From assembly GCF_041381155.1 (NCBI RefSeq), contig NC_091135.1, positions 71,018,888-71,082,887 on the forward strand: DNA of 64,000 nt. Reading direction: 5' to 3'. The translations under genes and the position numbers were made by a program. Below the pieces are notes generated by a model. It saw only the letters and a program-made list of their open reading frames with translations. It was not told where the DNA came from and did no database searches. Of this stretch, positions 3,001-63,500 are shown piece by piece. The stretch comes from Argopecten irradians. Its lineage: Eukaryota > Mollusca > Bivalvia > Pectinida > Pectinidae. Numbering within the stretch: the stretch's first letter is position 1; each line of letters opens with the position of its first letter.

Positions 3001-6000
3001 TATAACATATTACCATTGTATTTGTCCTATCCAGAATACTAACAGATGATATGATACCGTTATACCATTATAACATATTACCATTGTATTTGTCCTATCC
3101 AGAATACTAACAGATGATATGATACCGTTATACCATTATAACATATTACCATTGTATTTGTCCTATCCAGAATACTAACAGATGATATGATACCGTTATA
3201 CCATTATAACATATTACCATTGTATTTGTCCTATCCAGAATACTAACAGATGATATGATACCGTTATACCATTATAACATATTACCATTGTATTTGTCCT
3301 ATCCAGAATACTAACAGATGATATGATACCGTTATACCATTATAACTATTACCATTTATTTGTCCTATGATACTACGATGATATACCGTTATACCATTAT
3401 AACATATTACCATTGTATTTGTCCTATCCAGAATACTAACAGATGATATGATACCGTTTATACCATTATAACATATTACCATTGTATTTGTCCTATCCAG
3501 AATACTAACAGATGATATGATACCGTTATACCATTATAACATATTACCATTGTATTTGTCCTATCCAGAATACTAACAGATGATATGATACCGTTATACC
3601 ATTATAACATATTACCATTGTATTTGTCCTATCCAGAATACTAACAGATGATATGATACCGTTATACCATTATAACATATTACCATTGTATTTGTCCTAT
3701 CCAGAATACTTACCGATGATATGATACCGTTATACCATTATAACATATTACCATTGTATTTGTCCTATCCAGAATACTAACAGATGATATGATACCGTTA
3801 TACCATTATAACATATTACCATTGTATTTGTCCTATCCAGAATACTTACCGATGATATGATACCGTTATACCATTATAACATATTACCATTGTATTTGTC
3901 CTATCCAGAATACTAACAGATGATATGATACCGTTATACCATTATAACATATTACCATTGTATTTGTCCTATCCAGAATACTAACAGATGATATGATACC
4001 GTTATACCATTATAACATATTACCATTGTATTTGTCCTATCCAGAATACTAACAGATGATATGATACCGTTATACCATTATAACATATTACCATTGTATT
4101 TGTCCTATCCAGAATACTAACAGATGATATGATACCGTTATACCATTATAACATATTACCATTGTATTTGTCCTATCCAGAATACTAACAGATGATATGA
4201 TACCGTTATACCATTATAACATATTACCATTGTATTTGTCCTATCCAGAATACTAACAGATGATATGATACCGTTATACCATTATAACATATTACCATTG
4301 TATTTGTCCTATCCAGAATACTAACAGATGATATGATACCGTTATACCATTATAACATATTACCATTGTATTTGTCCTATCCAGAATACTTACAGATGAT
4401 ATGATACCGTTATACCATTATAACATATTACCATTGTATTTGTCCTATCCAGAATACTAACAGATGATATGATACCGTTATACCATTATAACATATTACC
4501 ATTGTATTTGTCCTATCCAGAATACTAACAGATGATATGATACCGTTATACCATTATAACATATTACCATTGTATTTGTCCTATCCAGAATACTAACAGA
4601 TGATATGATACCGTTATACCATTATAACATATTACCATTGTATTTGTCCTATCCAGAATACTAACAGATGATATGATACCGTTATACCATTATAACATAT
4701 TACCATTGTATTTGTCCTATCCAGAATACTAACAGATGATATGATACCGTTATACCATTATAACATATTACCATTGTATTTGTCCTATCCAGAATACTAA
4801 CAGATGATATGATACCGTTATACCATTATAACATATTACCATTGTATTTGTCCTATCCAGAATACTAACAGATGATATGATACCGTTATACCATTATAAC
4901 ATATTACCATTGTATTTGTCCTATCCAGAATACTAACAGATGATATGATACCGTTATACCATTATAACATATTACCATTGTATTTGTCCTATCCAGAATA
5001 CTAACAGATGATATGATACCGTTATACCATTATAACATATTACCATTGTATTTGTCCTATCCAGAATACTAACAGATGATATGATACCGTTATACCATTA
5101 TAACATATTACCATTGTATTTGTCCTATCCAGAATACTAACAGATGATATGATACCGTTATACCATTATAACATATTACCATTGTATTTGTCCTATCCAG
5201 AATACTAACAGATGATATGATACCGTTATACCATTATAACATATTACCATTGTATTTGTCCTATCCAGAATACTAACAGATGATATGATACCGTTATACC
5301 ATTATAACATATTACCATTGTATTTGTCCTATCCAGAATACTAACAGATGATATGATACCGTTATACCATTATAACATATTACCATTGTATTTGTCCTAT
5401 CCAGAATACTAACAGATGATATGATACCGTTATACCATTATAACATATTACCATTGTATTTGTCCTATCCAGATATACTATTACCATTATTGATCGATAT
5501 GATATGATACCGTTATACCATTATAACATATTACCATTGTATTTGTCCTATCCAGAATACTTACAGATGATATGATACCGTTATACCATTATAACATATT
5601 ACCATTGTATTTGTCCTATCCAGAATACTAACAGATGATATGATACCGTTATACCATTATAACATATTACCATTGTATTTGTCCTATCCAGAATACTAAC
5701 AGATGATATGATACCGTTATACCATTATAACATATTACCATTGTATTTGTCCTATCCAGAATACTAACAGATGATATGATACCGTTATACCATTATAACA
5801 TATTACCATTGTATTTGTCCTATCCAGAATACTAACAGATGATATGATACCGTTATACCATTATAACATATTACCATTGTATTTGTCCTATCCAGAATAC
5901 TAACAGATGATATGATACCGTTATACCATTATAACATATTACCATTGTATTTGTCCTATCCAGAATACTAACAGATGATATGATACCGTTATACCATTAT

Positions 6001-9000
6001 AACATATTACCATTGTATTTGTCCTATCCAGAATACTAACAGATGATATGATACCGTTATACCATTATAACATATTACCATTGTATTTGTCCTATCCAGA
6101 ATACTAACAGATGATATGATACCGTTATACCATTATAACATATTACCATTGTATTTGTCCTATCCAGAATACTAACAGATGATATGATACCGTTATACCA
6201 TTATAACATATTACCATTGTATTTGTCCTATCCAGAATACTAACAGATGATATGATACCGTTATACCATTATAACATATTACCATTGTATTTGTCCTATC
6301 CAGAATACTAACAGATGATATGATACCGTTATACCATTATAACATATTACCATTGTATTTGTCCTATCCAGAATACTTACCGATGATATGATACCGTTAT
6401 ACCATTATAACATATTACCATTGTATTTGTCCTATCCAGAATACTTACCGATGATATGATACCGTTATACCATTATAACATATTACCATTATATTTGTCC
6501 TATCCAGAATACTAACAGATGATATGATACCGTTATACCATTATAACATATTACCATTGTATTTGTCCTATCCAGAATACTTACCGATGATATGATACCG
6601 TTATACCATTATAACATATTACCATTATATTTGTCCTATCCAGAATACTAACAGATGATATGATACCGTTATACCATTATAACATATTACCATTGTATTT
6701 GTCCTATCCAGAATACTAACAGATGATATGATACCGTTATACCATTATAACATATTACCATTGTATTTGTCCTATCCAGAATACTAACAGATGATATGAT
6801 ACCGTTATACCATTATAACATATTACCATTGTATTTGTCCTATCCAGAATACTAACAGATGATATGATACCGTTATACCATTATAACATATTACCATTGT
6901 ATTTGTCCTATCCAGAATACTAACAGATGATATGATACCGTTATACCATTATAACATATTACCATTGTATTTGTCCTATCCAGAATACTAACAGATGATA
7001 TGATACCGTTATACCATTATAACATATTACCATTGTATTTGTCCTATCCAGAATACTAACAGATGATATGATACCGTTATACCATTATAACATATTACCA
7101 TTGTATTTGTCCTATCCAGAATACTAACAGATGATATGATACCGTTATACCATTATAACATATTACCATTGTATTTGTCCTATCCAGAATACTAACAGAT
7201 GATATGATACCGTTATACCATTATAACATATTACCATTGTATTTGTCCTATCCAGAATACTAACAGATGATATGATACCGTTATACCATTATAACATATT
7301 ACCATTGTATTTGTCCTATCCAGAATACTAACAGATGATATGATACCGTTATACCATTATAACATATTACCATTGTATTTGTCCTATCCAGAATACTAAC
7401 AGATGATATGATACCGTTATACCATTATAACATATTACCATTGTATTTGTCCTATCCAGAATACTAACAGATGATATGATACCGTTATACCATTATAACA
7501 TATTACCATTGTATTTGTCCTATCCAGAATACTAACGATGATATGATACCGTTATACCATTATAACATATTACCATTGTATTTGTCCTATCCAGAATACT
7601 AACAGATGATATGATACCGTTATACCATTATAACATATTACCATTGTATTTGTCCTATCCAGAATACTAACAGATGATATGATACCGTTATACCATTATA
7701 ACATATTACCATTGTATTTGTCCTATCCAGAATACTAACAGATGATATGATACCGTTATACCATTATAACATATTACCATTGTATTTGTCCTATCCAGAA
7801 TACTAACAGATGATATGATACCGTTATACCATTATAACATATTACCATTGTATTTGTCCTATCCAGAATACTTACCAGATGATATGATACCGTTATACCA
7901 TTATAACATATTACCATTGTATTTGTCCTATCCAGAATACTAACAGATGATATGATACCGTTATACCATTATAACATATTACCATTATATCTGTCCTATC
8001 CAGAATACTTACCGATGATATGATACCGTTATACCATTATAACATATTACCATTGTATTTGTCCTATCCAGAATACTAACAGATGATATGATACCGTTAT
8101 ACCATTATAACATATTACCATTATATTTGTCCTATCCAGAATACTAACAGATGATATGATACCGTTATACCATTATAACATATTACCATTATATTTGTCC
8201 TATCCAGAATACTAACAGATGATATGATACCGTTATACCATTATAACATATTACCATTATATTTGTCCTATCCAGAATACTAACAGATGATATGATACCG
8301 TTATACCATTATAACATATTACCATTGTATTTGTCCTATCCAGAATACTAACAGATGATATGATACCGTTATACCATTATAACATATTACCATTGTATTT
8401 GTCCTATCCAGAATACTAACAGATGATATGATACCGTTATACCATTATAACATATTACCATTGTATTTGTCCTATCCAGAATACTAACAGATGATATGAT
8501 ACCGTTATACCATTATAACATATTACCATTATATCTGTCCTATCCAGAATACTAACAGATGATATGATACCGTTATACCATTATAACATATTACCATTGT
8601 ATTTGTCCTATCCAGAATACTAACAGATGATATGATACCGTTATACCATTATAACATATTACCATTGTATTTGTCCTATCCAGAATACTAACAGATGATG
8701 ATATGATACCGTTATACCATTATAACATATTACCATTGTATTTGTCCTATCCAGAATACTAACAGATGATATGATACCGTTATACCATTATAACATATTA
8801 CCATTGTATTTGTCCTATCCAGAATACTAACAGATGATATGATACCGTTATACCATTATAACATATTACCATTGTATTTGTCCTATCCAGAATACTAACA
8901 GATGATATGATACCGTTATACCATTATAACATATTACCATTGTATTTGTCCTATCCAGAATACTAACAGATGATATGATACCGTTATACCATTATAACAT

Positions 9001-11830
9001 ATTACCATTGTATTTGTCCTATCCAGAATACTAACAGATGATATGATACCGTTATACCATTATAACATATTACCATTGTATTTTTCCTATCCAGAATACT
9101 AACAGATGATATGATACCGTTATACCATTATAACATATTACCATTGTATTTGTCCTATCCAGAATACTAACAGATGATATGATACCGTTATACCATTATA
9201 ACATATTACCATTGTATTTGTCCTATCCAGAATACTAACAGATGATATGATACCGTTATACCATTATAACATATTACCATTGTATTTGTCCTATCCAGAA
9301 TACTAACAGATGATATGATACCGTTATACCATTATAACATATTACCATTGTATTTGTCCTATCCAGAATACTAACAGATGATATGATACCGTTATACCAT
9401 TATAACATATTACCATTGTATTTGTCCTATCCAGAATACTAACAGATGATATGATACCGTTTATACCATTATAACATATTACCATTGTATTTGTCCTATC
9501 CAGAATACTAACAGATGATATGATACCGTTATACCATTATAACATATTACCATTGTATTTATCCTATCCAGAATACTTACCATGATATGATACCGTTATA
9601 CCATTATAACATATTACCATTGTATTTGTCCTATCCAGAATACTAACAGATGATATGATACCGTTATACCATTATAACATATTACCATTGTATTTGTCCT
9701 ATCCAGAATACTAACAGATGATATGATACCGTTATACCATTATAACATATTACCATTGTATTTGTCCTATCCAGAATACTAACAGATGATATGATACCGT
9801 TATACCATTATAACATATTACCATTGTATTTGTCCTATCCAGAATACTAACAGATGATATGATACCGTTATACCATTATAACATATTACCATTGTATTTG
9901 TCCTATCCAGAATACTAACAGATGATATGATACCGTTATACCATTATAACATATTACCATTGTATATCTGTCCTATCCCAAATACTAAAATGATATGATA
10001 CCGTTATACCATTATAACATATTACCATTGTATTTGTCCTATCCAGAATACTAACAGATGATATGATACCGTTATACCATTATAACATATTACCATTGTA
10101 TTTGTCCTATCCAGAATACTTACCGATGATATGATACCGTTATACCATTATAACATATTACCATTGTATTTGTCCTATCCAGAATACTAACAGATGATAT
10201 GATACCGTTATACCATTATAACATATTACCATTGTATTTGTCCTATCCAGAATACTAACAGATGATATGATACCGTTATACCATTATAACATATTACCAT
10301 TATATTTGTCCTATCCAGAATACTAACAGATGATATGATACCGTTATACCATTATAACATATTACCATTGTATTTGTCCTATCCAGAATACTAACAGATG
10401 ATATGATACCGTTATACCATTATAACATATTACCATTGTATTTGTCCTATCCAGAATACTAACAGATGATATGATACCGTTATACCATTATAACATATTA
10501 CCATTGTATCTGTCCTATCCAGAATACTAACAGATGATATGATACCGTTATACCATTATAACATATTACCATTGTATTTGTCCTATCCAGAATACTAACA
10601 GATGATATGATACCGTTATACCATTATAACATATTACCATTATATTTGTCCTATCCAGAATACTAACAGATGATATGATACCGTTATACCATTATAACAT
10701 ATTACCATTATATTTGTCCTATCCAGAATACTAACAGATGATATGATACCGTTATACCATTATAACATATTACCATTATATCTGTCCTATCCAGAATACT
10801 AACAGATGATATGATACCGTTATACCATTATAACATATTACCATTGTATCTGTCCTATCCAGAATACTAACAGATGATATGATACCGTTATACCATTATA
10901 ACATATTACCATTATATTTGTCCTATCCAGAATACTAACGGATGATATGATACCGTTATACCATTATAACATATTACCATTGTATCTGTCCTATCCAGAA
11001 TACTAACAGATGATATGATACCGTTATACCATTATAACATATTACCATTGTATTTGTCCTATCCAGAATACTAACAGATGATATGATACCGTTATACCAT
11101 TATAACATATTACCATTGTATTTGTCCTATCCAGAATACTTACCGATGATATGATACCGTTATACCATTATAACATATTACCATTATATCTGTCCTATCC
11201 AGAATACTAACAGATGATATGATACCGTTATACCATTATAACATATTACCATTGTATTTGTCCTATCCAGAATACTAACAGATGATATGATACCGTTATA
11301 CCATTATAACATATTACCATTGTATTTGTCCTATCCAGAATACTAACAGATGATATGATACCGTTATACCATTATAACATATTACCATTGTATTTGTCCT
11401 ATCCAGAATACTAACAGATGATATGATACCGTTATACCATTATAACATATTACCATTGTATTTGTCCTATCCAGAATACTAACAGATGATATGATACCGT
11501 TATACCATTATAACATATTACCATTGTATTTGTCCTATCCAGAATACTAACAGATGATATGATACCGTTATACCATTATAACATATTACCATTGTATTTG
11601 TCCTATCCAGAATACTAACAGATGATATGATACCGTTATACCATTATAACATATTACCATTGTATTTGTCCTATCCAGAATACTAACAGATGATATGATA
11701 CCGTTATACCATTATAACATATTACCATTGTATTTGTCCTATCCAGAATACTAACAGATGATATGATACCGTTATACCATTATAACATATTACCATTGTA
11801 TTTGTCCTATCCAGAATACTTACCGATGAT
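1..11830. repeat. 68-bp tandem array (satellite), about 173 copies
   Basis: The unit repeats every 68 bp with very high identity from the first base of the window, so the array probably extends beyond it. Each unit has the order TGTATTTGTCCTATCCAG, AATACTAACAG, ATGATATGATACC, then an AT-rich tail ending in ATTACCAT. Two main variants alternate in blocks: AATACTAACAG and AATACTTACCG. A second polymorphism is TTGTATTT versus TTATATTT or TTATATCT. A few units are degenerate, near 975-1,050, 3,341-3,385, 5,470-5,500 and 9,955-9,990. The array ends where the last AATACTTACCGATGATATG unit runs into unique sequence at 11,833. Most units contain TACTAAC and a TTTGTCCTATCCAG acceptor-like string. The small ORFs inside are by-products of the repeat. 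Confidence 0.97.
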
Positions 11831-11965
11831 ATGGCACCATTACATCAACGTTTGGTTCCTGTTTCACTCTATGCACATCTCAATGGTGTGGCTTGTCGAA
11901 GGTCTTACGAAAGGGATACAAAATTGCTGGATCATGTTGCTGCACCAGAGCTTACTCGAAGATAA
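11815..11965 (+). CDS. putative terminal coding exon of an unrecognised gene
   Basis: After an acceptor-like TTTGTCCTATCCAG ending at 11,814, a reading frame continues to a TAA at 11,963-11,965. The peptide starts ILTDDMAPLHQR and ends HVAAPELTRR, about 49 residues with normal-looking composition. The DNA here is less AT-rich than its flanks. The segment from ATG 11,831 gives 44 residues. An AATAAA lies 385 bp downstream at 12,350-12,355, which suits a last exon with its 3' UTR. No domain is recognised. If this is a real exon, the intron before it contains the whole 68-bp array, and the rest of the gene lies left of the window. It could also be chance openness. Other ORFs over the same bases look less protein-like. 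Confidence 0.4.
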
Positions 11966-20075: not shown

Positions 20076-21461
20076 TCACTCTGGTGCAAGTACTGGTTTG
20101 GGGTAAAAGTCATGTACTGTGTAACGAGAGCAGGGGACAATACCTACATTTGTCCAGCAGTACAGTCCCGTCGTGAGTGTCCGGAGATAGGCCGCCATCA
20201 TTCCGAACCCACTGTTAGACAACACCAGAACATCACACGTTGTCAGAAACAGGAAGTCCAATAGCTGTTTCTTAAATCCCTCACAAACGTCACCTTGGCG
20301 ATAGCTCGTCTGGTCGATGTGCAGGATGTTGCCCTTGATATCGACACATCTATCTCTATATCTATCTCGTGCGCCATGACGAACAGAATCGTCGTCTGTT
20401 GCTATGAATATATTATAACTACTTGAGTTGAAATTATCTAGAAAAGACCACACTACTTTGAGGGAGTTTTTGTCATTCCGCGCATGGTCATTACGCATGC
20501 TGGGATTGCCACCCATGCGCAAATGCGCGCAAACAGTTTTCTTACTATTAATATTTTCACGAATATCACTCAGGTCTTTAGATATACCCTCCGACGGTTT
20601 GAACAATGTGTTAAAAATCTTGTAGTAAATATCCGAAAATTGTAAGTCTGTGATCCAAGGAGCATATTTCTGGATATTTGGATATCTTCTAAACTTTCTG
20701 GTGAGATCCCAATTCATGCGGACATAGCAGACGTCCGCCTGGAAGTATTTGTGTAAGCCTGTCGGTGTGAGCTCCTTGCCCATCTTATGATACAGACTGT
20801 TGGAAAGGATGTGATACGATGACGATCTGTTAGCGACATCAGACGGCTCCATCGTCCAGTCATAGAGATTTGGTCTGAGGAACTCGGAAAGCATACAGGG
20901 CGAATCAAAATTAATCTTGAATGTCCTATTGGTGAGAGCGGCTAGTACAAGCGTTGAAAGGATCCCAGATAGTCGGTCGGACCAGCCTCCGCAGTTTTCC
21001 TTGTGAGACTTACTGCAGTCGTAAACGAGATACTTCTCTCGCTTTCGGGGATGTAAAACCACAGAATCCGTCACAGTAATGTTAACGTTAGTTTTGAACT
21101 GGATGTTACTCTGGTTGTTAAAAACATCCATAGGAGTTTGATGATTTCCACCAGTCTCTTTGGAATTATTTCCTTGATTAGCCTTCAGCTTTTTATGCAT
21201 GTTTAGGTTGGTCACTTCTTGTCCAAAATATTTTAAGCTTAAAGCATACAAATTCATATGTGACAAATTTCCCTTTATTTTCAAATCTTCCATAAGGTTT
21301 CGTTCTATTGAATCTCTGAGCATTATCTTTTTCTTCACGTTTAACGGTTTTTTCTTCAGGAAAGTTTGACGGATCTCGTTTTCCCATCCGAAAAAAATTA
21401 TGGTCAGAATGATGCAAACCATCAAAAGGACAGAAAATGTCTGTAACACCAATTCCTTCAT
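20076..21461 (-). CDS. Golgi-type fucosyltransferase-superfamily protein (type II membrane protein)
   Basis: An intact 461-residue frame in a single exon. I start it at the ATG at 21,461 because the upstream in-frame ATG (21,488) lies before the acceptor TTTTATCCAG|GTGAAAG, whose exon begins at 21,475. Residues 4-26 are a hydrophobic signal anchor after MKE, giving a short cytosolic tail; a stem with several N-glycosylation sequons follows. The catalytic-type region begins at CGGWSDRLSG (157-166), a donor-loop-like motif. It continues with CAHLRMGG (about 311-318; the H.R.G motif I of alpha1,2-, alpha1,6- and O-fucosyltransferases), FIATDDDS (352-359; motif II) and DFLFLTTCDVLVLSNSGFG (402-420; motif III). 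Predicted role: transfer of fucose, or a related sugar, to secreted glycans in the Golgi. Acceptor and exact family are not deducible. A truncated copy of its head lies at 24,086. Confidence 0.8.
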   Translation of the reverse strand: MKELVLQTFSVLLMVCIILTIIFFGWENEIRQTFLKKKPLNVKKKIMLRDSIERNLMEDLKIKGNLSHMNLYALSLKYFGQEVTNLNMHKKLKANQGNNSKETGGNHQTPMDVFNNQSNIQFKTNVNITVTDSVVLHPRKREKYLVYDCSKSHKENCGGWSDRLSGILSTLVLAALTNRTFKINFDSPCMLSEFLRPNLYDWTMEPSDVANRSSSYHILSNSLYHKMGKELTPTGLHKYFQADVCYVRMNWDLTRKFRRYPNIQKYAPWITDLQFSDIYYKIFNTLFKPSEGISKDLSDIRENINSKKTVCAHLRMGGNPSMRNDHARNDKNSLKVVWSFLDNFNSSSYNIFIATDDDSVRHGARDRYRDRCVDIKGNILHIDQTSYRQGDVCEGFKKQLLDFLFLTTCDVLVLSNSGFGMMAAYLRTLTTGLYCWTNVGIVPCSRYTVHDFYPKPVLAPE

Positions 21462-24085
21462 GGCCACTCTTTCACCTGGATAAAACAAACCAAAAGGGGT
21501 TATTATCTACGATTGCAATGGAGTTGTGATCCACGGGAGGTAACTCACCGTGATTTATTTTGAAAAAGTCTGATGTATGAGAACCGATGTGTTATTAGAC
21601 AGGAAATGTTAAACTTTGAATGGTGGACAACAGGATAGCATAGATATAAATAAAAGTATTTTAATTAAAGTAGACTTATGTCTATAAGGATCCAGTGTTG
21701 TATGATAAACAACCGTTGACCAACAAAAGTATATTAATGACTTATTTAGTAAAAGTAAATTAACATGACTAAACTAATGACTTATTACAGTGGATTGTGG
21801 AAAATCGGCGTGAATTTAGAATATAAATACTTATATGGGAATACTTATGGGGGGGAATTATGGAATTATAACAAATTAATCAATTATATTAAAATTGTTT
21901 AATAATTGCCAGCTATTTTTGATATGTCAACTTATGAGAACCTAATTTTCAAAAAGCTGTTGGTGATCATATTCTATATCACATATAAATGATAATAATT
22001 CAACAGCAGTGTTTAGAAGTCATTTCAGTAGTCAATGTGTACTCCTTAGGAACTGACAAAAATGTTAAAATCAACAAGAGAGATAGTATATTGTGCTATC
22101 TACAACTGCATATAGAGGTACGTATATTTTTCTGATCAATGCTGTTATATTTAACTATTTATCTTCATTTGTTAATAAAAATCAATATAGGAAATATTAC
22201 CCAAATAGAAATGTCTCCCCAATACTACTGATGGACGTTGGTATTGCTTCAGTGTATGCTATTAAGAAATGTCTGTTTTATGATATTTGTAGTGTTAAAC
22301 TTACCTGTTGTATCTCCGAATATTGTAAATTGTTGTCTGTTTTTATTCCTGTGTCGTACATTTGATCACCGATCATGTTCCACCCGTCTGTGTACTAAGA
22401 CATGAGAGCAATTGCCGTTACAGGTCAGCTAGGTTTTACATTGAGTCGATCCCAACATAAAGCGGTGTATTGTTTTAGGACGCTACCAACTGTACAATGA
22501 TTGTTATTATCATTGTGGTGGTTATACACACCTTACTATAGCTTAAGTACAGTGTCTGGTAGAAAACGAGCATAAAACTAGTATTTTATCGATTTCGACA
22601 AAGTTAATAATGTCAGCAATTATCTGAAATTGATCGGTGTAATCAGAGATTTAAATATAATTACTTTTTAAATCGGTGTTATGTATCACAAACATAATTA
22701 GGTAAATGTTCAACCAGTGAAACTTTTAATCACTTTTTAGTTTTAAACGATAAAATTGTTTCTCAGAGTGGCTGAACCATAAACACACTGTAACTGTTCA
22801 TAGCAGAAACACGAAGGACGGAGGTCAATTATGTATTGTCGACAGCTCAACCAGAAAACTACAAACTTTATAAAGGTTAGGATATAACGGGAGGTTCACA
22901 TTACAGATAGGGGAGATTGCCGACAGCCTACCCGAAAACTACACCCTAGGTAAGAAAATAACGAAAGATTTACAATTTTATATCTGATGTTATTGTTTTC
23001 AAAACATATTCTAACTATCGAACGTCACTACAAAGTTATATTTAATCATAAATTCTATATCATATTATACTGTAATATAGCGTGAGCTGTATAACGAATG
23101 ACAGCTTTATAAGTCATGTTTGTTTTAATGTTATGGTAAAACCCAAGTGGAGCAGTCAATAATTTTAGTTTTATTATGGTTAGGGTATTGTGTCATATTT
23201 ATCTAAAACTACTCGAGGCCTCGCTATGGAGGATTGACCAGGTAATGGTTCATACATTTTGTCTGTTTTACCGTTGTTTATAACCATCCGAATAACACCT
23301 GTATGATAATGACTTTATCTATTCGAGAAATGGATTGAAGAGGGACTGAATAAAGACACAGTGGGAGAAACTACGTCACATATATAGTTGCCGTTGCAAT
23401 TTAAATGGCGGAAAATTTTTCGCTTCAAGGTAGAAAATGGCATGCTGTAATAAATTTTGTATGTGTCACCAATAACGACACAATAAGAAAATGAGTGCAC
23501 CGTACCCCGGACATTTCCATGTAACTGTAGCAAGTGTTATTTATGGTATAAATTACTTCGTTTCTTCAAACACTTCAACGCAATTTCAAAATAGTGCCTG
23601 ATATCGTTACACAATCAAGCGTGGTTTTGTAAACAATAAAAATTTCTGCATATTTCCGATGTCGCATGTTGAATACATTGTTATATTACTTTGAAGCGAA
23701 CAATTTTCCGCCATTTAAATTGCAACGGCAATCATGTATGTGACGTAGTTTCTCCCCCGTGACAGACTACAGAAAAATGTAAAGGGAGAACGATTTCTGC
23801 AACGTTAATCACCACAGAAATCTGGTGTGTTCATGAACAAAACAACAATGGACAGGGATTGAGATCACACAATTGTGAGATCGACCGTAAAACGTCCTCG
23901 TATGTCTAGAAACTTATCCATATGAATATTTCAGTATTTCGTATGTTGTTGAATATGTTTTTTTTATATAATGTCTGGTTTTGACACTGATTTCTGTCAA
24001 TTATAATTTTGATGTTTTATCTTTTTTAGATCAATTACAGTTTATCCTGTCGATGTTCTGAATTCTAACTTTCTTTGTTATCTAG
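21462..24085. other. spacer between inverted fucosyltransferase heads
   Basis: This 2.6-kb AT-rich stretch should contain the upstream non-coding exon(s) and promoter of the minus-strand gene, which I cannot place. A foldback-type inverted repeat at 23,361-23,763 is listed separately. The ORF of 90 codons at 22,093-22,365 resembles no family and I do not accept it. Confidence 0.55.
23361..23764. mobile_element. foldback/MITE-like element with about 70-bp inverted repeats
   Basis: The left arm (23,361-23,430) contains GTGGGAGAAACTACGTCACA, GTTGCCGTTGCAATTTAAAT, GGCGG and TTCGCTTCAAG. The right arm (about 23,690-23,763) is its reverse complement with a few mismatches. The spacer of about 260 bp has no ORF. 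No target-site duplication could be fixed by eye, so the exact ends are uncertain. Confidence 0.6.
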
Positions 24086-24342
24086 GTGAAAGAGTGGCCA
24101 TGAAGGAGATAGTGTTACAGACATTTTCTGTCCTTTTGATGGTCTGCATCATTCTGACAATCATTCTTTATCGATGGGAGAGCCAGATCCGTCAAACATT
24201 CCTGGATAGAAAATCGTCAAACATGCAGAAAAAGCCTACACATTTACTTAGAGGTTCAAAATTCGAAAGGAATGATTCATCAAGTACCAGAGTGATAAAG
24301 CTCAACTCCACGACATTGTTACACAAACTACTAACACTTTAA
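24086..24342 (+). pseudogene. truncated paralogue head of the fucosyltransferase-like gene
   Basis: After an acceptor (TTGTTATCTAG) the exon starts GTGAAAGAGTGGCCATGAAG, the same as the start of the minus-strand gene's exon. From ATG 24,100 it encodes MKEIVLQTFSVLLMVCIILT, near-identical to the signal anchor of that gene, then RWESQIRQTFLDRKSSN. It drifts and stops at TAA 24,340-24,342 after 80 codons. No catalytic motif (H.R.G, TDD, SNSGFG) follows in any frame I followed. It is most simply a 5' fragment of an inverted duplication. A short membrane-anchored peptide product cannot be excluded, since the acceptor, start and anchor are all preserved. Confidence 0.65.
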
Positions 24343-32550: not shown

Positions 32551-34484
32551 CTGTCCAAATACAAACAACTTTATATATAAAAGGTAGAGACTTTATTACT
32601 GATGTGTAAATGTCCAAATACAAACAACTTTATATATAAAAGGTAGAGACTTTATTACTGATGTGTAAATGTCCAAATACAAACAACTTTATATATAAAA
32701 GGTAGAGACTTTATTACTGATGTGTAAATGTCCAAATACAAACAACTTTATATATAAAAGGTAGAGACTTTATTACTGATGTGTAAATGTCCAAATACAA
32801 ACAACTTTATATACAAGAGATCCCAGAGGGATCTTGGCGCCCACCAAAGAACGATCTATGTCTGACATTTGAAAGAGGGATCTTTTCCCTGCTTTTCAAA
32901 CTTTTACTACATACTATATATGAACCTTGAGAAAGATCCTTTCAGTACTTTCTGAGATATGTAGCAGTAACAAACTTCAATTATCAAAATTCAAGATGGC
33001 TACCTGTCGATCATCTTGCTGACCGATCTGTCCCAAAATGCAATATGCACAACTAGGGTCGTAGGGGAACCTACATATGAAATTTGAGAAAGATTCCTTC
33101 AGTACTTTCTGGGAAATAGTGTTAACAAACTTTAACTATCAAAATCCAAGATGGCCGTCAGTCGGTCGGCCATCTTGTTGACTGATTGGTCCCAAAATGC
33201 AATATGCACAACTAGGGCCTAGGAGAACCAAGATATGAAATTTGAGAAAGATCCCTTCAAAACTTTCTGAGAAATAGCGGTAACAAACTTTAACTATCAA
33301 AATCCAAGATGGCCGCCAGTCGGCCATCTTGTTGACCAATTGGTCCCAAAATGCAATATGCACAACTAGGGCCCTAGGAGAACCAACATATGAAATTTGA
33401 GAAAGATCCCTTCAAAACTTTCTGAGAAATAGCGGTAACAAACTTTAACTATCAAAATCCAAGATGGCCGCCAGTCGGCCATCTTGTTGAGCAATTGGTC
33501 CCAAAATGCAATATGCACAACTAAGGCCCTAGGGGAACCTACATGTGAAATTTGAGAAAGATCCCTTAAGTACTTTCTGAGAAATAGCGGTAACAAACTT
33601 TAACTATCAAAATCCAAGATGGCCGCCAGTCGGCCATCTTGTTGACCGATTGGTCCCAAAATGCAATATGCACAACTAGGGCCCTAGGGGAACCTACATG
33701 TGAAATTTGAGAAAGATCCCTTCAAAACTTTCTGAGAAATAGCGGTAACAAACTTTAACTATCAAAATCCAAGATGGCCGCCAGTCGGCCATCTTGTTGA
33801 CCGATTGGTCCCAAAATGCAATATGCACAACTAGGGCCCTAGGGGAACCTACATGTGAAATTTGAGAAAGATCCCTTGTGTACTTTCTGAGAAATAGCGG
33901 TAACAAGAATTGTTAACGGACGGACGGACGGACGGACGGACGGACGGACGGACGGACGGACGACGGACGGACGGACGGACGACGGACCACGGACGAAAGG
34001 CAATTTGAATAGCCCACCATCTGATGATGGTGGGCTAATAAAAGGTAGAGACTTTATTACTGATGTGTAAATGTCCAAATACAAACAACTTTATATATAA
34101 AAGGTAGAGACTTTATTACTGATGTGTAAATGTCCAAATACAAACAACTTTATATATAAAAGGTAGAGACTTTATTACTGATGTGTAAATGTCCAAATAC
34201 AAACAACTTTATATATAAAAGGTAGAGACTTTATTACTGATGTGTAAATGTCTAAATACAAACAACTTTATATATAAAAGGTAGAGACTTTATTACTGAT
34301 GTGTAAATGTCCAAATACAAACAACTTTATATATAAAAGGTAGAGACTTTATTACTGATGTGTAAATGTCTAAATACAAACAACTTTATATATAAAAGGT
34401 AGAGACTTTATTACTGATGTGTAAATGTCTAAATACAAACAACTTTATATATAAAAGGTAGAGACTTTATTACTGATGTGTAAA
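32551..34484. repeat. 59-bp minisatellite split by a transposon
   Basis: The unit is TGTCCAAATACAAACAACTT, TATATATAAAAGGTAGAGAC, TTTATTACTGATGTGTAAA; 59 bp. About 4.5 copies lie at 32,551-32,813 and about 7.5 at 34,039-34,484. Joining the two sides across the element restores the 59-bp register without loss or gain. A TCC/TCT change distinguishes several right-hand units. Confidence 0.95.
32814..34038 (+). mobile_element. Helitron-like/'pearl'-type non-autonomous element inserted in a minisatellite
   Basis: A 1,225-bp insertion. It starts CAAGAGATCCCAGAGGGATC, with a stem AGATCCC/GGGATCT, and carries about six core repeats of 155-158 bp (landmark CAAGATGG at 32,992, 33,147, 33,305, 33,460, 33,615 and 33,770). 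An (ACGG)n microsatellite at 33,915-33,985 follows, then a perfect 3' hairpin AGCCCACCAT/ATGGTGGGCT and the terminus CTAA. The flanking unit reads TTTATATA|TAAAAGG, so insertion was between A and T with no target duplication, and the 3' hairpin plus CTRR end is canonical for Helitrons. The 5' end is not the textbook TC. No Rep/helicase ORF is present, so it is non-autonomous; ORFs in the core repeats are spurious. Confidence 0.8.
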
Positions 34485-41149: not shown

Positions 41150-41158
41150 GCCAATAAC
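41150..41158. repeat. 9-bp target-site duplication, left copy
   Basis: GCCAATAAC directly precedes the element start CACAGGGACTTG. The same 9 bp follow the right end at 43,527-43,535. Confidence 0.75.
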
Positions 41159-43526
41159 CACAGGGACTTGTAACGTAGGTTGTGAGAAAGTCTGCTGTGT
41201 ATACATGTGTACTATATACTATATAAAAGGACAAGGGAACCAACAACTCGCTTGGAAGAGGTACACCTGCCTCTACAAAAGTCGCCCGTATTCCGTCAAA
41301 CATGGATAAATATGTACATATTTAATACCAATATATTCTTAAATAAATTTTCGACATGGAAAACACAACTTCAAACACGAAATAACATATTAACATACCT
41401 TTATTTCACTATGAACGTGGAAAATGCAGTCAGATATCACCGATGTCGTTTTGCCTGTCCACTGAAATCTAGGTCAAAAGCACTCATACTCCCTTGTAAC
41501 AAATTTTGTATGCATTCATTTCACTTTCTGGTGATATTTTCCCATTGCAAATACAAATAGGCTATATCTGATAACTCTTTCATTAATCCAATCCAAAAGC
41601 TAAGCGAGGAATCACACTTTTTTTATCCAGCACTCGACTCTTGTTCGTATAATCCGCCATATTGTAATTGATGATGGGTACCTTTTTGGTGTACTCGCCC
41701 TTACCCGATACTACACTGAAATTCTGTACTCAGACTCTGTATAAATTAAGTTTCACGGTTTAGGTTCTTAGAAGAACCTTTATTTGAGATGCATATATCA
41801 TTAATTGAAGAATCTAACTTAAATGGAGACTCTAATGTTGTACTTGACCGTTACCACATTGATATTGTAGCTTTTAGTGTACAGACACCGGGTATATGGT
41901 GTTTCCAGTCCGGGTCCGGGTATGGGGTACACAATATCCACACAAACGTGTTTAACCTAGATTTCAGTGGACAGGCAAAACGACATCGGTGATATCTGAC
42001 TGCATTTTCCACGTTCATAGTGAAATAAAGGTATGTTAATATATTATTTCGTGTTTGAAGTTGTGTTTTTCATGTCGAAAATTTATTTAAGAATATATTG
42101 GTATTAAATATGTACATATTTATCCATGTTTGACGGAATACGGGCGACTTTTGTAGAGGCAGGTGTACCTCTTCCAAGCGAGTCGTTGGTTCCCTTGTCC
42201 TTTTATATAGTATATAGTACACATGTATACACAGCAGACTTTCTCACAACCTACGTTACAAGTCCCTGTGTATATAGTACACATGTATACACAGCAGACT
42301 TTCTCACAACCTACGTTACAAGTCCCTGTGTATATAGTACACATGTATACACAGCAGACTTTCTCACAACCTACGTTACAAGTCCCTGTGTATATAGTAC
42401 ACATGTATACACAGCAGACTTTCTCACAACCTACGTTACAAGTCCCTGTGTATATAGTACACATGTATACACAGCAGACTTTCTCACAACCTACGTTACA
42501 AGTCCCTGTGTATATAAGTAACACATGTTACACAGCAGACTTTCTCACAACCTACGTTACAAGTCCCTGTGTATATAGTACACATGTATACACAGCAGAC
42601 TTTCTCACAACCTACGTTACAAGTCCCTGTGTATATAGTACACATGTATACACAACAGACTTTCTCACAACCTACGTTACAAGTCCCTGTGTATATAGTA
42701 CACATGTATACACAGCAGACTTTCTCACAACCTACGTTACAAGTCCCTGTGTATATAGTACACATGTATACACAGCAGACTTTCTCACAACCTACGTTAC
42801 AAGTCCCTGTGTATATAGTACACATGTATACACAGCAGACTTTCTCACAACCTACGTTACAAGTCCCTGTAGTATATAGTACACATGTATACACAGCAGA
42901 CTTTCTCACAACCTACGTTACAAGTCCCTGTGTATATAGTACACATGTATACACAGCTTTCTCACAACCTACGTTACAAGTCCCTGTGTAATGTACACAT
43001 GTATACACAGCAGACTTTCTCACAACCTACGTTACAAGTCCCTGTGTATATAGTACACATGTATACACAGCAGACTTTCTCACAACCTACGTTACAAGTC
43101 CCTGTGTATATAGTACACATGTATACACAGCAGACTTTCTCACAACCTACGTTACAAGTCCCTGTGTATATAGTACACATGTATACACAGCAGACTTTCT
43201 CACAACCTACGTTACAAGTCCCTGTGTATATAGTACACATGTATACACAGCAGACTTTCTCACAACCTACGTTACAAGTCCCTGTGTATATAGTACACAT
43301 GTATACACAGCAGACTTTCTCACAACCTACGTTACAAGTCCCTGTGTATATAGTACACATGTATACACAGCAGACTTTCTCACAACCTACGTTACAAGTC
43401 CCTGTGTATATAGTACACATGTATACACAGCAGACTTTCTCACAACCTACGTTACAAGTCCCTGTGTATATAGTACACATGTATACACAGCAGACTTTCT
43501 CACAACCTACGTTACAAGTCCCTGTG
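41159..43526. mobile_element. non-autonomous long-TIR DNA transposon (Mutator-like by structure)
   Basis: The left TIR (41,159-41,474, 316 bp) is the near-perfect reverse complement of 41,955-42,270 (316 bp). The ends are CACAGGGACTTG and CAAGTCCCTGTG, flanked by the 9-bp duplication GCCAATAAC. Long TIRs with a 9-bp duplication fit Mutator-like elements; a two-base ambiguity also permits a 7-bp CCAATAA duplication with CCACAGGG ends. The 480-bp interior (41,475-41,954) has no transposase. The right side is enlarged by tandem amplification of its last 60 bp (42,211-43,526), while the left end has one copy. Confidence 0.8.
42211..43526. repeat. 60-bp tandem array derived from the right TIR end, about 22 copies
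   Basis: The unit is TATATAGTACACATGTATAC, ACAGCAGACTTTCTCACAAC, CTACGTTACAAGTCCCTGTG, equal to the terminal 60 bp of the TIR. Copies are almost identical; a few carry small indels near 42,515, 42,870, 42,957 and 42,990. Because 60 is divisible by three, long ORFs appear on both strands; these are artefacts. Confidence 0.95.
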
Positions 43527-43535
43527 GCCAATAAC
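43527..43535. repeat. 9-bp target-site duplication, right copy
   Basis: GCCAATAAC immediately follows the last array unit ending CCCTGTG. It matches the left copy at 41,150-41,158. Confidence 0.75.
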
Positions 43536-53045: not shown

Positions 53046-56000
53046 ACACGAGTGTATTGCCCTAGATGAGAGACCAGCAACTATTACAAGTGTAGGTGTC
53101 TATTGCCCTGGACCAGCCAGTATTACACGTTCAGGTATGAGAGACCAGCCACTATTACAAGTGTAGGTGTCTATTGCCCTAGCTAGACCTGCCAGTATTA
53201 CACATTTAGGTATGAGAGACCAGCCACTATTACAAGTGTAGGTGTCTATTGCCCTAGACCAGCCAGTATTACACGTTTAGGTATGAGAGACCAGCCACTA
53301 TTACAAGTGTAGGTGTCTATTGCCCTAGCTAGACCAGCCAGTATTACACGTTTAGGTATGAGAGACCAGCCACTATTACAAGTGTAGGTGTCTATTGCCC
53401 TAGACCAGCCAGTATTACACGTTTAGGTATGAGAGACCAGCCACTATTACAAGTGTAGGTGTCTATTGCCCTAGACCAGCCAGTATTACACGTTTAGGTA
53501 TGAGAGACCAGCCACTATTACAAGTGCCACTATTACAAGTGTAGGTGTCTATTGCCCTAGCTAGACCTGCCAGTATTACACGTTTAGGTATGAGAGACCA
53601 GCCACTATTACAAGTGTAGGTGTCTATTGCCCTAGCTAGACCAGCCAGTATTACACGTTTAGGTATGAGAGACCAGCCACTATTACAAGTGTAGGTGTCT
53701 ATTGCCCTAGACCAGCCAGTATTACCTTTAGGTATGAGACCAGCCACTATTACAAGTGTAGGTGTCTATTGCCCTAGACCAGCCAGTATTACACGTTTAG
53801 GTATGAGAGACCAGCCACTATTACAAGTGTAGGTGTCTATTGCCTAGCTAGACCAGCCAGTATTACACGTTTAGGTATGAGAGACCAGCCACTATTACAA
53901 GTGTAGGTGTCTATTGCCTAGCTAGACCAGCCAGTATTACACGTTTAGGTATGAGAGACCAGCCACTATTACAAGTGTGGTGTCTATTGCCCTAGCTAGA
54001 CCAGCCAGTATTACACGTTTAGGTATGAGAGACCAGCCACTATTACAAGTGTAGGTGTCTATTGCCCTAGACCAGCCAGTATTACACGTTTAGGTATGAG
54101 AGACCAGCCACTATTACAAGTGTAGGTGTCTATTGCCCTAGACCTGCCAGTATTACACGTTTAGGTATGAGAGACCAGCCACTATTACAAGTGTAGGTGT
54201 CTATTGCCCTAGCTAGACCTGCCAGTATTACACGTTTAGGTATGAGAGACCAGCCACTATTACAAGTGTAGGTGTCTATTGCCCTAGCTAGACCAGCCAG
54301 TATTACACGTTTAGGTATGAGAGACCAGCCACTATTACAAGTGTAGGTGTCTATTGCCCTAGACCAGCCAGTATTACACGTTTAGGTATGAGAGACCAGC
54401 CACTATTACAAGTGTAGGTGTCTATTGCCCTAGACCAGCCAGTATTACACGTTTAGGTATGAGAGACCAGCCACTATTACAAGTGTAGGTGTCTATTGCC
54501 TAGCTAGACCAGCCAGTATTACACGTTTAGGTATGAGAGACCAGCCACTATTACAAGTGTAGGTGTCTATTGCCCTAGACCAGCCAGTATTACACGTTTA
54601 GGTATGAGAGACCAGCCACTATTACAAGTGTAGGTGTCTATTGCCCTAGCTAGACCAGCCAGTATTACACGTTTAGGTATGAGAGACCAGCCACTATTAC
54701 AAGTGTAGGTGTCTATTGCCCTATAGACCAGCCAGTATTACACGTTTAGGTATGAGAGACCAGCCACTATTACAAGTGTAGGTGTCTATTGCCCTAGACC
54801 AGCCAGTATTACACGTTTAGGTATGAGAGACCAGCCACTATTACAAGTGTAGGTGTCTATTGCCCTAGACCAGCCAGTATTACACGTTTAGGTATGAGAG
54901 ACCAGCCACTATTACAAGTGTAGGTGTCTATTGCCCTAGCTAGACCAGCCAGTATTACACGTTTAGGTATGAGAGACCAGCCACTATTACAAGTGTAGGT
55001 GTCTATTGCCCTAGACCAGCCAGTATTACACGTTTAGGTATGAGAGACCAGCCACTATTACAAGTGTAGGTGTCTATTGCCCTAGACCAGCCAGTATTAC
55101 ACGTTTAGGTATGAGAGACCAGCCACTATTACAAGTGTAGGTGTCTATTGCCCTAGACCAGCCAGTATTACACGTTTAGGTATGAGAGACCAGCCACTAT
55201 TACAAGTGTAGGTGTCTATTGCCCTAGACCAGCCAGTATTACACGTTTAGGTATGAGAGACCAGCCACTATTACAAGTGTAGGTGTCTATTGCCCTAGAC
55301 CAGCCAGTATTACACGTTTAGGTATGAGAGACCAGCCACTATTACAAGTGTAGGTGTCTATTGCCCTAGACCAGCCAGTATTACACGTTTAGGTATGAGA
55401 GACCAGCCACTATTACAAGTGTAGGTGTCTATTGCCCTAGCTAGACCTGCCAGTATTACACATTTAGGTATGAGAGACCAGCCACTATTACAAGTGTAGG
55501 TGTCTATTGCCCTAGCTAGACCAGCCAGTATTACACATTTAGGTATGAGAGACCAGCCACTATTACAAGTGTAGGTGTCTATTGCCCTAGCTAGACCTGC
55601 CAGTATTACACGTTTAGGTATGAGAGACCAGCCACTATTACAAGTGTAGGTGTCTATTGCCCTAGAGACCAGCCAGTATCTTACACGTTTAGGTATGAGA
55701 GACCAGCCACTATTACAAGTGTAGGTGTCTATTGCCCTAGACCAGCCAGTATTACACGTTTAGGTATGAGAGACCAGCCACTATTACAAGTGTAGGTGTC
55801 TATTGCCCTAGCTAGACCAGCCAGTATTACACGTTTAGGTATGAGAGACCAGCCACTATTACAAGTGTAGGTGTCTATTGCCCTAGCTAGACCAGCCAGT
55901 ATTACACGTTTAGGTATGAGAGACCAGCCACTATTACAAGTGTAGGTGTCTATTGCCCTAGACCAGCCAGTATTACACGTTTAGGTATGAGAGACCAGCC

Positions 56001-58895
56001 ACTATTACAAGTGTAGGTGTCTATTGCCCTAGACCAGCCAGTATTACACGTTTAGGTATGAGAGACCAGCCACTATTACAAGTGTAGGTGTCTATTGCCC
56101 TAGCTAGACCAGCCAGTATTACACGTTTAGGTATGAGAGACCAGCCACTATTACAAGTGTAGGTGTCTATTGCCCTAGACCAGCCAGTATTACACGTTTA
56201 GGTATGAGAGACCAGCCACTATTACAAGTGTAGGTGTCTATTGCCCTAGACCAGCCAGTATTACACGTTTAGGTATGAGAGACCAGCCACTATTACAAGT
56301 GTAGGTGTCTATTGCCCTAGACCAGCCAGTATTACACGTTTAGGTATGAGAGACCAGCCACTATTACAAGTGTAGGTGTCTATTGCCCCTAGACCTGCCA
56401 GTATTACACGTTTGGTATGAGAGACCAGCCACACAAGTTAGTGTCTATTATGCCAGTATTACACTTAGTATGAGAGACCAGCCACTATTACAAGTGTAGG
56501 TGTCTATTGCCCTAGCTAGACCAGCCAGTATTACACATTTAGGTATGAGAGACCAGCCACTATTACAAGTGTAGGTGTCTATTGCCCTAGACCAGCCAGT
56601 ATTACACGTTTAGGTATGAGAGACCAGCCACTATTACAAGTGTAGGTGTCTATTGCCCTAGCTAGACCTGCCAGTATTACACATTTAGGTATGAGAGACC
56701 AGCCACTATTACAAGTGTAGGTGTCTATTGCCCTAGCTAGACCAGCCAGTATTACACGTTTAGGTATGAGAGACCAGCCACTATTACAAGTGTAGGTGTC
56801 TATTGCCCTAGACCAGCCAGTATTACACGTTTAGGTATGAGAGACCAGCCACTATTACAAGTGTAGGTGTCTATTGCCCTAGACCAGCCAGTATTACACG
56901 TTTAGGTATGAGAGACCAGCCACTATTACAAGTGTAGGTGTCTATTGCCCTAGACCAGCCAGTATTACACGTTTAGGTATGAGAGACCAGCCACTATTAC
57001 AAGTGTAGGTGTCTATTGCCCTAGACCAGCCAGTATTACACGTTTAGGTATGAGAGACCAGCCACTATTACAAGTGTAGGTGTCTATTGCCCTAGACCAG
57101 CCAGTATTACACTTTAGGTATGAGAGACCAGCCACTATTACAAGTGTAGGTGTCTATTGCCCGAGACCAGCCAGTATTACACATTTAGATATGAGAGACC
57201 AGCCACTATTACAAGTGTAGATGTCTATTGCCCTAGCTAGACCTGCCAGTATTACACATTTAGGTATGAGAGACCAGCCACTATTACAAGTGTAGGTGTC
57301 TATTGCCCTAGACCAGCCAGTATTACACATTTAGGTATGAGAGACCAGCCACTATTACAAGTGTAGGTGTCTATTGCCCTAGACCAGCCAGTATTACACG
57401 TTTAGGTATGAGAGACCAGCCACTATTACAAGTGTAGGTGTCTATTGCCCTAGACCAGCCAGTATTACACGTTTAGGTATGAGAGACCAGCCACTATTAC
57501 AAGTGTAGGTGTCTATTGCCCTAGACCAGCCAGTATTACACATTTAGGTATGAGAGACCAGCCACTATTACAAGTGTAGGTGTCTATTGCCCTAGACCAG
57601 CCAGTATTACACGTTTAGGTATGAGAGACCAGCCACTATTACAAGTGTAGGTGTCTATTGCCCTAGCTAGACCAGCCAGTATTACAAGTGTAGATGTCTA
57701 TTGCCCTAGCTAGACCAGCCAGTATTACACATTTAGGTATGAGAGACCAGCCACTATTACAAGTGTAGGTGTCTATTGCCCTAGACCAGCCAGTATTACA
57801 CGTTTAGGTATGAGAGACCAGCCACTATTACAAGTGTAGGTGTCTATTGCCCTAGCTAGACCAGCCAGTATTACACATTTAGGTATGAGAGACCAGCCAC
57901 TATTACAAGTGTAGGTGTCTATTGCCCTAGCTAGACCAGCCAGTATTACACGTTTAGGTATGAGAGACCAGCCACTATTACAAGTGTAGGTGTCTATTGC
58001 CCTATTAGAAGTGTAGGTGTCTATTGCCCTAGACCAGCCAGTATTACACGTTTAGGTATGAGAGACCAGCCACTATTACAAGTGTAGGTGTCTATTGCCC
58101 TAGCTAGACCAGCCAGTATTACACGTTTAGGTATGAGAGACCAGCCACTATTACAAGTGTAGGTGTCTATTGCCCTAGACCAGCCAGTATTACACGTTTA
58201 GGTATGAGAGACCAGCCACTATTACAAGTGTAGGTGTCTATTGCCCTAGCTAGACCAGCCAGTATTACATGTTTAGGTATGAGAGACCAGCCACTATTAC
58301 AAGTGTAGGTGTCTATTGCCCTAGACCAGCCAGTATTACACGTTTAGGTATGAGAGACCAGCCACTATTACAAGTGTAGGTGTCTATTGCCCTAGCTAGA
58401 CCAGCCAGTATTACACGTTTAGGTATGAGAGACCAGCCACTATTACAAGTGTAGGTGTCTATTGCCCTAGACCAGCCAGTATTACACGTTTAGGTATGAG
58501 AGACCAGCCACTATTACAAGTGTAGGTGTCTATTGCCCTAGCTAGACCAGCCAGTATTACACGTTTAGGTATGAGAGACCAGCCACTATTACAAGTGTAG
58601 GTGTCTATTGCCCTAGCTAGACCAGCCAGTATTACACGTTTAGGTATGAGAGACCAGCCACTATTACAAGTGTAGGTGTCTATTGCCCTAGACCAGCCAG
58701 TATTACACGTTTAGGTATGAGAGACCAGCCACTATTACAAGTGTAGGTGTCTATTGCCCTAGACCAGCCAGTATTACACGTTTAGGTATGAGAGACCAGC
58801 CACTATTACAAGTGTAGGTGTCTATTGTGACCAGCCTATTACACGTTTAGCTAGACCAGCCACTATTACAGTGTAGGTGTCTATTGCCCTATGTA
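53046..58895. repeat. 5.8-kb tandem array with a two-state unit (71 or 75 bp), about 81 copies
   Basis: The unit is GACCAGCCACTATTACAAGT, GTAGGTGTCTATTGCCCTAG, ACCAGCCAGTATTACACGTT, TAGGTATGAGA; 71 bp. A second form adds CTAG after CCCTAG, making 75 bp. Each unit is itself made of two related halves: ACCAGCCACTATTACAAGTG and ACCAGCCAGTATTACACGTT. Further variation includes ACCTGCC and ACACATTTAGG. Damaged units lie near 53,520, 56,400-56,470, 57,660, 58,000 and at the right edge. Confidence 0.96.
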
Positions 58896-61664: not shown

Positions 61665-63500
61665 AACTGTACTTCAAAATCTCAAAAAGAAAATTTACCT
61701 GTGTGATAAAAAAAACTTTGTTAAACTTATTTATTTCATCTCTACATTTTGAAGCTGCAAGGCATAAGGAAGCCGATTTTAGTGGAGATAAAAAACGAGG
61801 TAAAACTGTAGTGCTGATTTTGTAGATGGCCTGAAGGTTTGATATCAGTGTGTACATCTATCACCAGGTAAAAACACTGACATCTGTACAGTACTAACAC
61901 ACAATGTCCTCAGATGACCTACAACAGCTGTTACCTGAAACACCTTCAAACTCACAGGGACATGATACCTTTTATGGCCTAGAAAGATTTTTTTACCTGA
62001 AGGATTCAATCTTATATTGTAGAATATCAAAGACAATAGCAATCTTTATTTGATATTTTTTCCTTCATTTAATCTGAAGCATAATCCATTAAGACTAGCT
62101 TTGTTTATTACATGTAGAATTTGTCAAGTCCCTGTGCCCAGACCTACTTCACCATGAATCCCTACAACATTTGGTAAATTATATGGAAGCCATAACTACT
62201 GATCCAAAAATATATAGCTTATTTTTCTGATGCAAAAGTGCAGTAAAATAAACTTTAAACCATCGTAAATGAATTTCTTTGTAACTTTACAGATGTTTTT
62301 TAGATTAACGGTTTTTAACAGTGTTGTTATAAGCAGACTGATATCTGTCGTATTCTGTACCTGAGGTTTGTTATCTCGTAATCTGAATCAGTGAAAAGTA
62401 ACAATTTAGGACTATATCATGATCAGTATGAGGTCATAGTTTACCTACATGTTCTACCAATGTATATAAATTCTATCTGACCTTGTATGTCTACAAACAA
62501 ACTTATCTTTTCTGCAATATGATTTTACAAATTTTGTTGCATTCAAACTATGAAAAATTGAATTGTATGTGAAAATAAATACAATTTCTTTGCTGAAGGA
62601 GAAAGATTATTTGCTCTATTCAGCATCGTCCAGAAGCACACAAACTCCTACAGCTTTGACCACTGTGTGACCGCAGGGGAGTTTGTGTAGAGGCACCAGA
62701 AGAAAATACCCGATTATCTGCCCAGGAAACTAATAAATAATCAGCTTATTTGTTGAATTTATTGTATCGATCATGACCACCCTGACACGTTACTAAATCT
62801 GCACAATAATTCAGAAAGGGAATTCTTTAAACAAGACAAATTCACTGTTTATAACTTTTAAATCATTCGAGTCAAACACAAAGAAATACTTCCTCCCCTA
62901 CAGAATGAACTATCTTTAAAAAGAATAGAAATATGTAAAATATTTCCGGATGATAAATTTAGTAACTTACACAAAGAAGACATAAGAAACACTAAATTTC
63001 ACAAAAGTTATGTAATCGATTAAGCCTAAGAAGACACCCACGTCCTATTACAGAACTTTGTAAAGATCCTATTTCCATAGATTTTTCTAAACCATCTGCG
63101 TGTTTATATTGATATGATACTGAATACCTCTAATAAAGACTGAAGTATAAGGATGGGTGTTAAGTAATACGCAGTGTCGACATGTACGTTGTGGGTCTTC
63201 CTTAAGGTGTGTTTAATGACGCACCTGGACTGGACAGGTAAATACACTACAGTATTCACAGCTCTTAACATCTCTCTCTCAGTGTAGTGTGGTTTTATAC
63301 ACCTCCACTGTACAATAAATCTATAAGAACATTTGGTTTGTTTGTAACATGGGTGATGTTTATAGACAGGTTTGTAAGGTGCTGACAGTCACTAGGACCT
63401 GTTCTTCACCACCACAATCTGTCACATACTTAAATAAATACAGCTGATAAAAGATTTAAGAATATGCTACAAATCTAAATATAATATCAAAAATAATTAC
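61665..63500. other. unique intronic sequence next to the SH3 exon
   Basis: No further exon recognised. The donor of the SH3 exon lies at 63,500. Confidence 0.5.

Follow-up and report, generated by a model that had tools for sequence, protein, structure and literature searches.

Tandem arrays in or beside the inverted ends of transposons are a known kind of structure. The closest described cases include the MULE-related Rehavkus elements, which the accounts available report from insects and annelids (PMC6446971, PMC10218199), the Tetris foldback/TIR-220 elements, for which a Mutator affinity was suggested by their authors (PMC4079207), and the Xmix MITE/Xstir pair of Xenopus, for which a review table lists a tandem array derived from the terminal inverted repeat (TIR) of the MITE, alongside further cases of arrays derived from transposable elements (PMC9659126). 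Foldback-type elements have long TIRs with internal tandem repeats, whereas in the element described here the repeats are one-sided and terminal. The origin of satellites from transposons is often blurred by age. At this locus the repeat unit, the junction between units, the single-copy left end that serves as a reference, and the target-site duplication (TSD) are all intact, so that the founding breakpoint can be read directly.

Structure and setting of the element

The element measures 2,368 bp (41159-43526 of the window, the whole 64,000-base stretch of DNA analysed here) and is bounded by perfect 9-bp duplications of GCCAATAAC, at 41150-41158 on the left and 43527-43535 on the right. This 9-mer has three plus-strand occurrences in the window, the third at 34602, and the chance that two given 9-mers are identical is ~8e-6 at the base composition of the window. 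The initial annotation had described two 316-bp inverted repeats defining a long-TIR element, and a 9-bp duplication flanking the whole, array included; both descriptions agree with what we found. The left TIR (41159-41474, plus strand) begins CACAGGGACTTG, the right TIR (41955-42270, minus strand) is its inverted counterpart, and the two arms agree at 313 of 316 positions, the exceptions being arm positions 87, 201 and 228. An ungapped repeat search returned an inverted match of 325 nt at 98%, which is longer than 316 nt because the ungapped extension begins within the TSD; given a match of this length and the flanking nine-base identity, the inverted arms are not a product of chance. The element terminates in CACAGGGACTTGTAACG ends, and without 21 of the repeat units described below it would measure 1,112 bp.

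Between the arms lies an interior of 480 bp (41475-41954). Twenty-three open frames of at least 25 aa, taken from stop to stop, overlap 41400-42000, and the 10 of these that were scanned gave no Pfam match at E 1; the element is apparently non-autonomous and non-coding, and a non-coding copy speaks neither for nor against a MULE transposase. Its perfect 9-bp TSD lies within the 8-11 bp range described for MULEs, and its 316-bp TIR agrees with their long TIRs, commonly hundreds of base pairs (PMC6446971). Long TIRs are also found in other superfamilies (PMC3688188), and judged by TSD and TIR length alone, the element would fit a Mutator-like assignment. When the left TIR and the interior were compared with the rest of the window by blastn, only matches of 12-18 bases were returned; a 21-base end pattern had no exact match in viral contigs, a collection unsuited to an animal element.

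A separate stretch of 184 bp (61953-62136) has inverted ends, CACAGGGACATGA and CACAGGGACTTGA, whose first bases are like the focal terminus. Both of its ends are single and it has no TSD; such a convergent pair appeared in 0 of 100 order-1 Markov sequences, the pattern having been chosen after it was seen. This stretch is possibly an old short relative.

Two frames on the minus strand of the window bear on the setting of the element: an open frame of 899 codons, with CAS_C (E 9e-61) and Serine_rich (E 1e-40) matches, and one at 63.5-63.8 kb that contains an SH3 domain (E 1e-10). Judging by these frames, the element seems to sit inside a long intron of a CAS/BCAR1-type gene, putatively one gene spanning both. 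According to the TRF table, merged by hand, tandem repeats occupy 27,123 of the 64,000 bases (42%), which indicates that repeat expansion is common in the region; 13,973 of these bases lie outside the focal array and a large 68-bp array.

Several other features of the window were recorded. The 68-bp tandem array (1-11833, ~173 copies) reaches the window's left edge, and an array of ~5.8 kb (53066-58891) with periods of 71 and 146 bp suggests higher-order structure. A Helitron-like element of ~1,225 bp (32814-34038), with a 155-bp tandem core, an ACGG microsatellite, a 3′ hairpin and a CTAA end, is inserted between A and T and splits a 59-bp minisatellite into 32552-32813 and 34038-34484; its flanks, read by eye, together restore the 59-bp repeat unit. 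Its ~155-bp core and four-base microsatellite recall the bivalve Pearl/HINE elements, as a hint only (PMC7492417). Finally, an inverted pair of 157 nt (21327-21483 and 24078-24234) is 86% alike, and part of a 476-codon frame on the minus strand (20076-21506), which had no Pfam match at E 0.001, is repeated on the opposite strand, which suggests that a gene fragment was duplicated.

The terminal array and its growth

The left end of the element carries its terminal 60 bp once, and the right end carries them 22 times head-to-tail. The array occupies 42211-43526 (minus strand; TRF gives period 60, 22.0 copies, 42210-43526), its first unit (42211-42270) is the last 60 bp of the right TIR, and nearly all units end in CCCTGTG. 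By a count made by eye, 16 of the 22 units match the terminal 60 bp of the left end exactly; the remaining six are units 6, 8, 11, 12, 13 and 14, units 11 and 12 differing by one inserted A. TRF and unit splitting agree with the initial annotation, which had counted about 22 right-end copies and a single left one, although the exact number is insecure, and the array does lie within the element's ends, stopping exactly at the TSD. The further claim that every unit ends in the transposon's terminus is supported, each unit being the element's terminus, with small changes in the six variants. The proposal of a minisatellite born from a transposon end and still inside its TSD is upheld, since the unit is the element's own terminus and is single in the left arm; the array is derived from the element itself. 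It is also reasonable to regard the units as 22 lined-up, putative transposase-end sites, since in Galileo-G two of the four repeats are described as holding further transposase binding sites (PMC3688188).

The idea that other minisatellites of the window are instances of the same phenomenon was rejected for the 14 other arrays compared (the 68-bp, 155-bp and ACGG arrays being left out): 16-mers sampled at 4-base intervals over roughly the first 81 bases of each had no exact inverted match elsewhere in the window. An exact test of this kind would miss diverged inverted copies.

As a whole, the locus is probably best explained by an insertion, a flush terminal duplication and then growth by unequal exchange or slippage, an account that we hold with reasonable but limited confidence. 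A non-autonomous Mutator-like element with a 9-bp TSD and long TIRs, ~1.1 kb in size, would have inserted in the apparent intron. The terminal 60 bp of its right end would then have been duplicated, with the distal breakpoint at the terminus (as read from the junction, within 1 bp), probably when a transposase-cut end was repaired or when self-insertion was followed by recombination. Identical units would probably then have multiplied from two to many, by replication slippage or unequal exchange among them, and growth of this kind, inside the element, would leave the TSD intact. With 1 substitution in 1,317 bp as compared to 6.3 expected if the arms were equally old (Poisson P(≤1) 0.014, a test that rests on three arm differences and to which recent growth and homogenisation look the same), the array either postdates the divergence of the arms or has been kept uniform; the arm differences may predate insertion, and the test gives no insertion date. 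The initial annotation had allowed both expansion after insertion and mobilisation of the array with the ends; we consider expansion at the present site somewhat likelier than the arrival of an already expanded donor.

The strongest competitor, which we regard as quite possible though not the reading to be expected, is that expansion took place in an earlier copy and the array then moved with the element, its outermost unit serving as the end. With the terminus intact in nearly every unit, a cut at the outermost one would be feasible, and transposition of an expanded element would be expected to leave a TSD outside the array. Moreover, the account of Rehavkus-1_TC in Tribolium describes several copies, ~95% identical, with short arrays in their inverted termini (PMC10218199). 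However, only one copy was seen here, and the few array substitutions relative to the arms lean towards late growth.

It is also possible, if somewhat doubtful, that the copy number, or the central part of the array, is an artefact of assembly or consensus. All of the array's variants lie in units 6-14 (42511-43046), where 10 indel bases and 1 substitution are suspected to be consensus error; that all five variant groups should fall in this part of 22 units has a probability of 0.005 if random, a figure chosen post hoc. The ratio of indel bases to substitutions is 10:1 here and 0:83 in six other arrays (Fisher 1e-12, or 1e-8 counting the indels as 6 events), a comparison that left out the arrays of period 35 (12 indel bases against 20 substitutions) and period 68 (66 against 73); set against all eight other scored arrays, with 78 indel bases to 176 substitutions, P is 9e-5, the contrast covering these eight and not all arrays of the window. 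Clean edges around an indel-rich centre are expected where polishing reads cannot be placed. Against an artefact, the array is clean at its borders with correct unique sequence and the TSD, for five units on the left and for eight on the right, which makes a real multi-unit array likely. Indels by themselves are no proof of error, because other arrays of the window have them: two of the eight scored arrays (periods 35 and 68) and, in the TRF table, unscored ones such as period 22 (8%) and period 146 (5%). The figure of 22 units is the assembly's number and approximate, and the indel pattern suggests consensus error, though the variation may be real.

The founding junction

The junction between units reads CCCTGTG followed directly by TATATAG. 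Homology at the breakpoint is 1 bp to the native sequence inside the arm and 0 bp to the outer flank, and the outer limit of the duplicated segment is the element's last base or the base before it. Between units there is no host DNA, nor is there a TSD, except that TATATAGTA, the 9 bases after the terminus, could be the TSD of a self-insertion. The chance of so flush a phase is 2/60 if breakpoints are taken as uniform over the 60-bp phase, which is an assumption and not a measurement. Because the homology is just 0-1 bp, ordinary microhomology-driven slippage is disfavoured as the founding event; the junction favours a cut transposon end or a self-insertion as the first step.

The native inner sequence at the founding breakpoint (42204-42217) is a double TATATAG, and the breakpoint lies at the start of its second copy.

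Under self-insertion, a second copy would have entered 60 bp inside the right end, with TATATAGTA as its 9-bp TSD, and recombination would have removed one body to leave two tandem right ends. A single normal transposition would in this way account for a junction at the terminus with no host DNA and almost no microhomology. The scheme nevertheless requires an additional recombination step, and the nested left junction that it predicts, TATATAGTA and then CACAGGG, is absent from the window; we judge it unlikely, though well worth weighing. A literature search for MULE self-insertion and nesting together with TIRs and tandem repeats found no paper.

Snap-back priming, in which the 3′ terminal CTGTG would pair with a subterminal CACAG, be extended by TATA and re-anneal at GTATA, with the last 60 bp recopied in each round, is weakly compatible with the junction and in our estimate improbable. 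Of 284 positions tested, 4 offer re-annealing homology of 5 bp or more, the observed start among them, in a test devised after the junction had been seen. But a better site with 8 bp, 45 bp from the end, is unused, and the fold of the unit does not stand out (z -1.35; matched by 18 of 200 shuffles), which also leaves a strong hairpin in the unit unsupported as a driver. Shuffles of the terminal 60 bp score as high as its inner palindrome in 121 of 500 cases, so that the palindrome is not significant. That an unrelated, pre-existing satellite was captured by the element, or inserted beside it, is so improbable that we treat it as ruled out: the window is rich in other arrays, but this unit is the element's terminus, of which the left arm has a single copy, and the TSD encloses the array.

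Insertion followed by flush terminal duplication and later growth is the account that we carry forward. If other copies share the flush breakpoint, transposition chemistry, and not replication slippage, would be implicated in starting arrays. We put forward only tentatively, as rather unlikely, the idea that transposase-made ends may start arrays, self-insertion or a cut at the terminus yielding a flush duplication that is then repeated into a stack of interchangeable right ends; if true, many ends would be open to such an element, and each move could add units or lose them.

Relation to described elements

Set beside Rehavkus by description, the element has a 9-bp TSD, as Rehavkus does, and a TIR length within the 26-400 bp described for it (PMC6446971, PMC10218199). 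In those same accounts the Rehavkus minisatellite sits before the 3′ TIR, whereas here the array, at one end, is the TIR terminus itself; the described Rehavkus elements encode a transposase with a PHD finger, whereas no transposase frame was found among the 10 frames scanned in this copy.

Tetris is alike in being non-autonomous, in its 8-10 bp TSD and in carrying TIR tandem repeats, which there seeded satellite arrays; it differs in that its repeats, of ~220 bp, are described as lying inside the TIR under an outer flanking domain and not at the terminus (PMC4079207). The Tm1 Mutator/Foldback elements, as reported, also have a mostly 9-bp TSD (8-10 bp in 45 of 53 complete elements) and a TIR repeat number that is unequal between the two ends of one element, but their repeated motif of 13-15 bp is internal to terminal motifs, they have many copies, and their transposase is Phantom-like (PMC3169594). 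In Galileo, too, TIR tandem repeats are described as varying independently between the ends; that element belongs to the P superfamily, has a 7-bp TSD and carries its repeats inside the TIR (PMC3573991, PMC3688188). Within the literature searched, this locus stands apart in three respects: its repeats consist of the extreme terminus, expansion is confined to one side, and the founding breakpoint can still be read.
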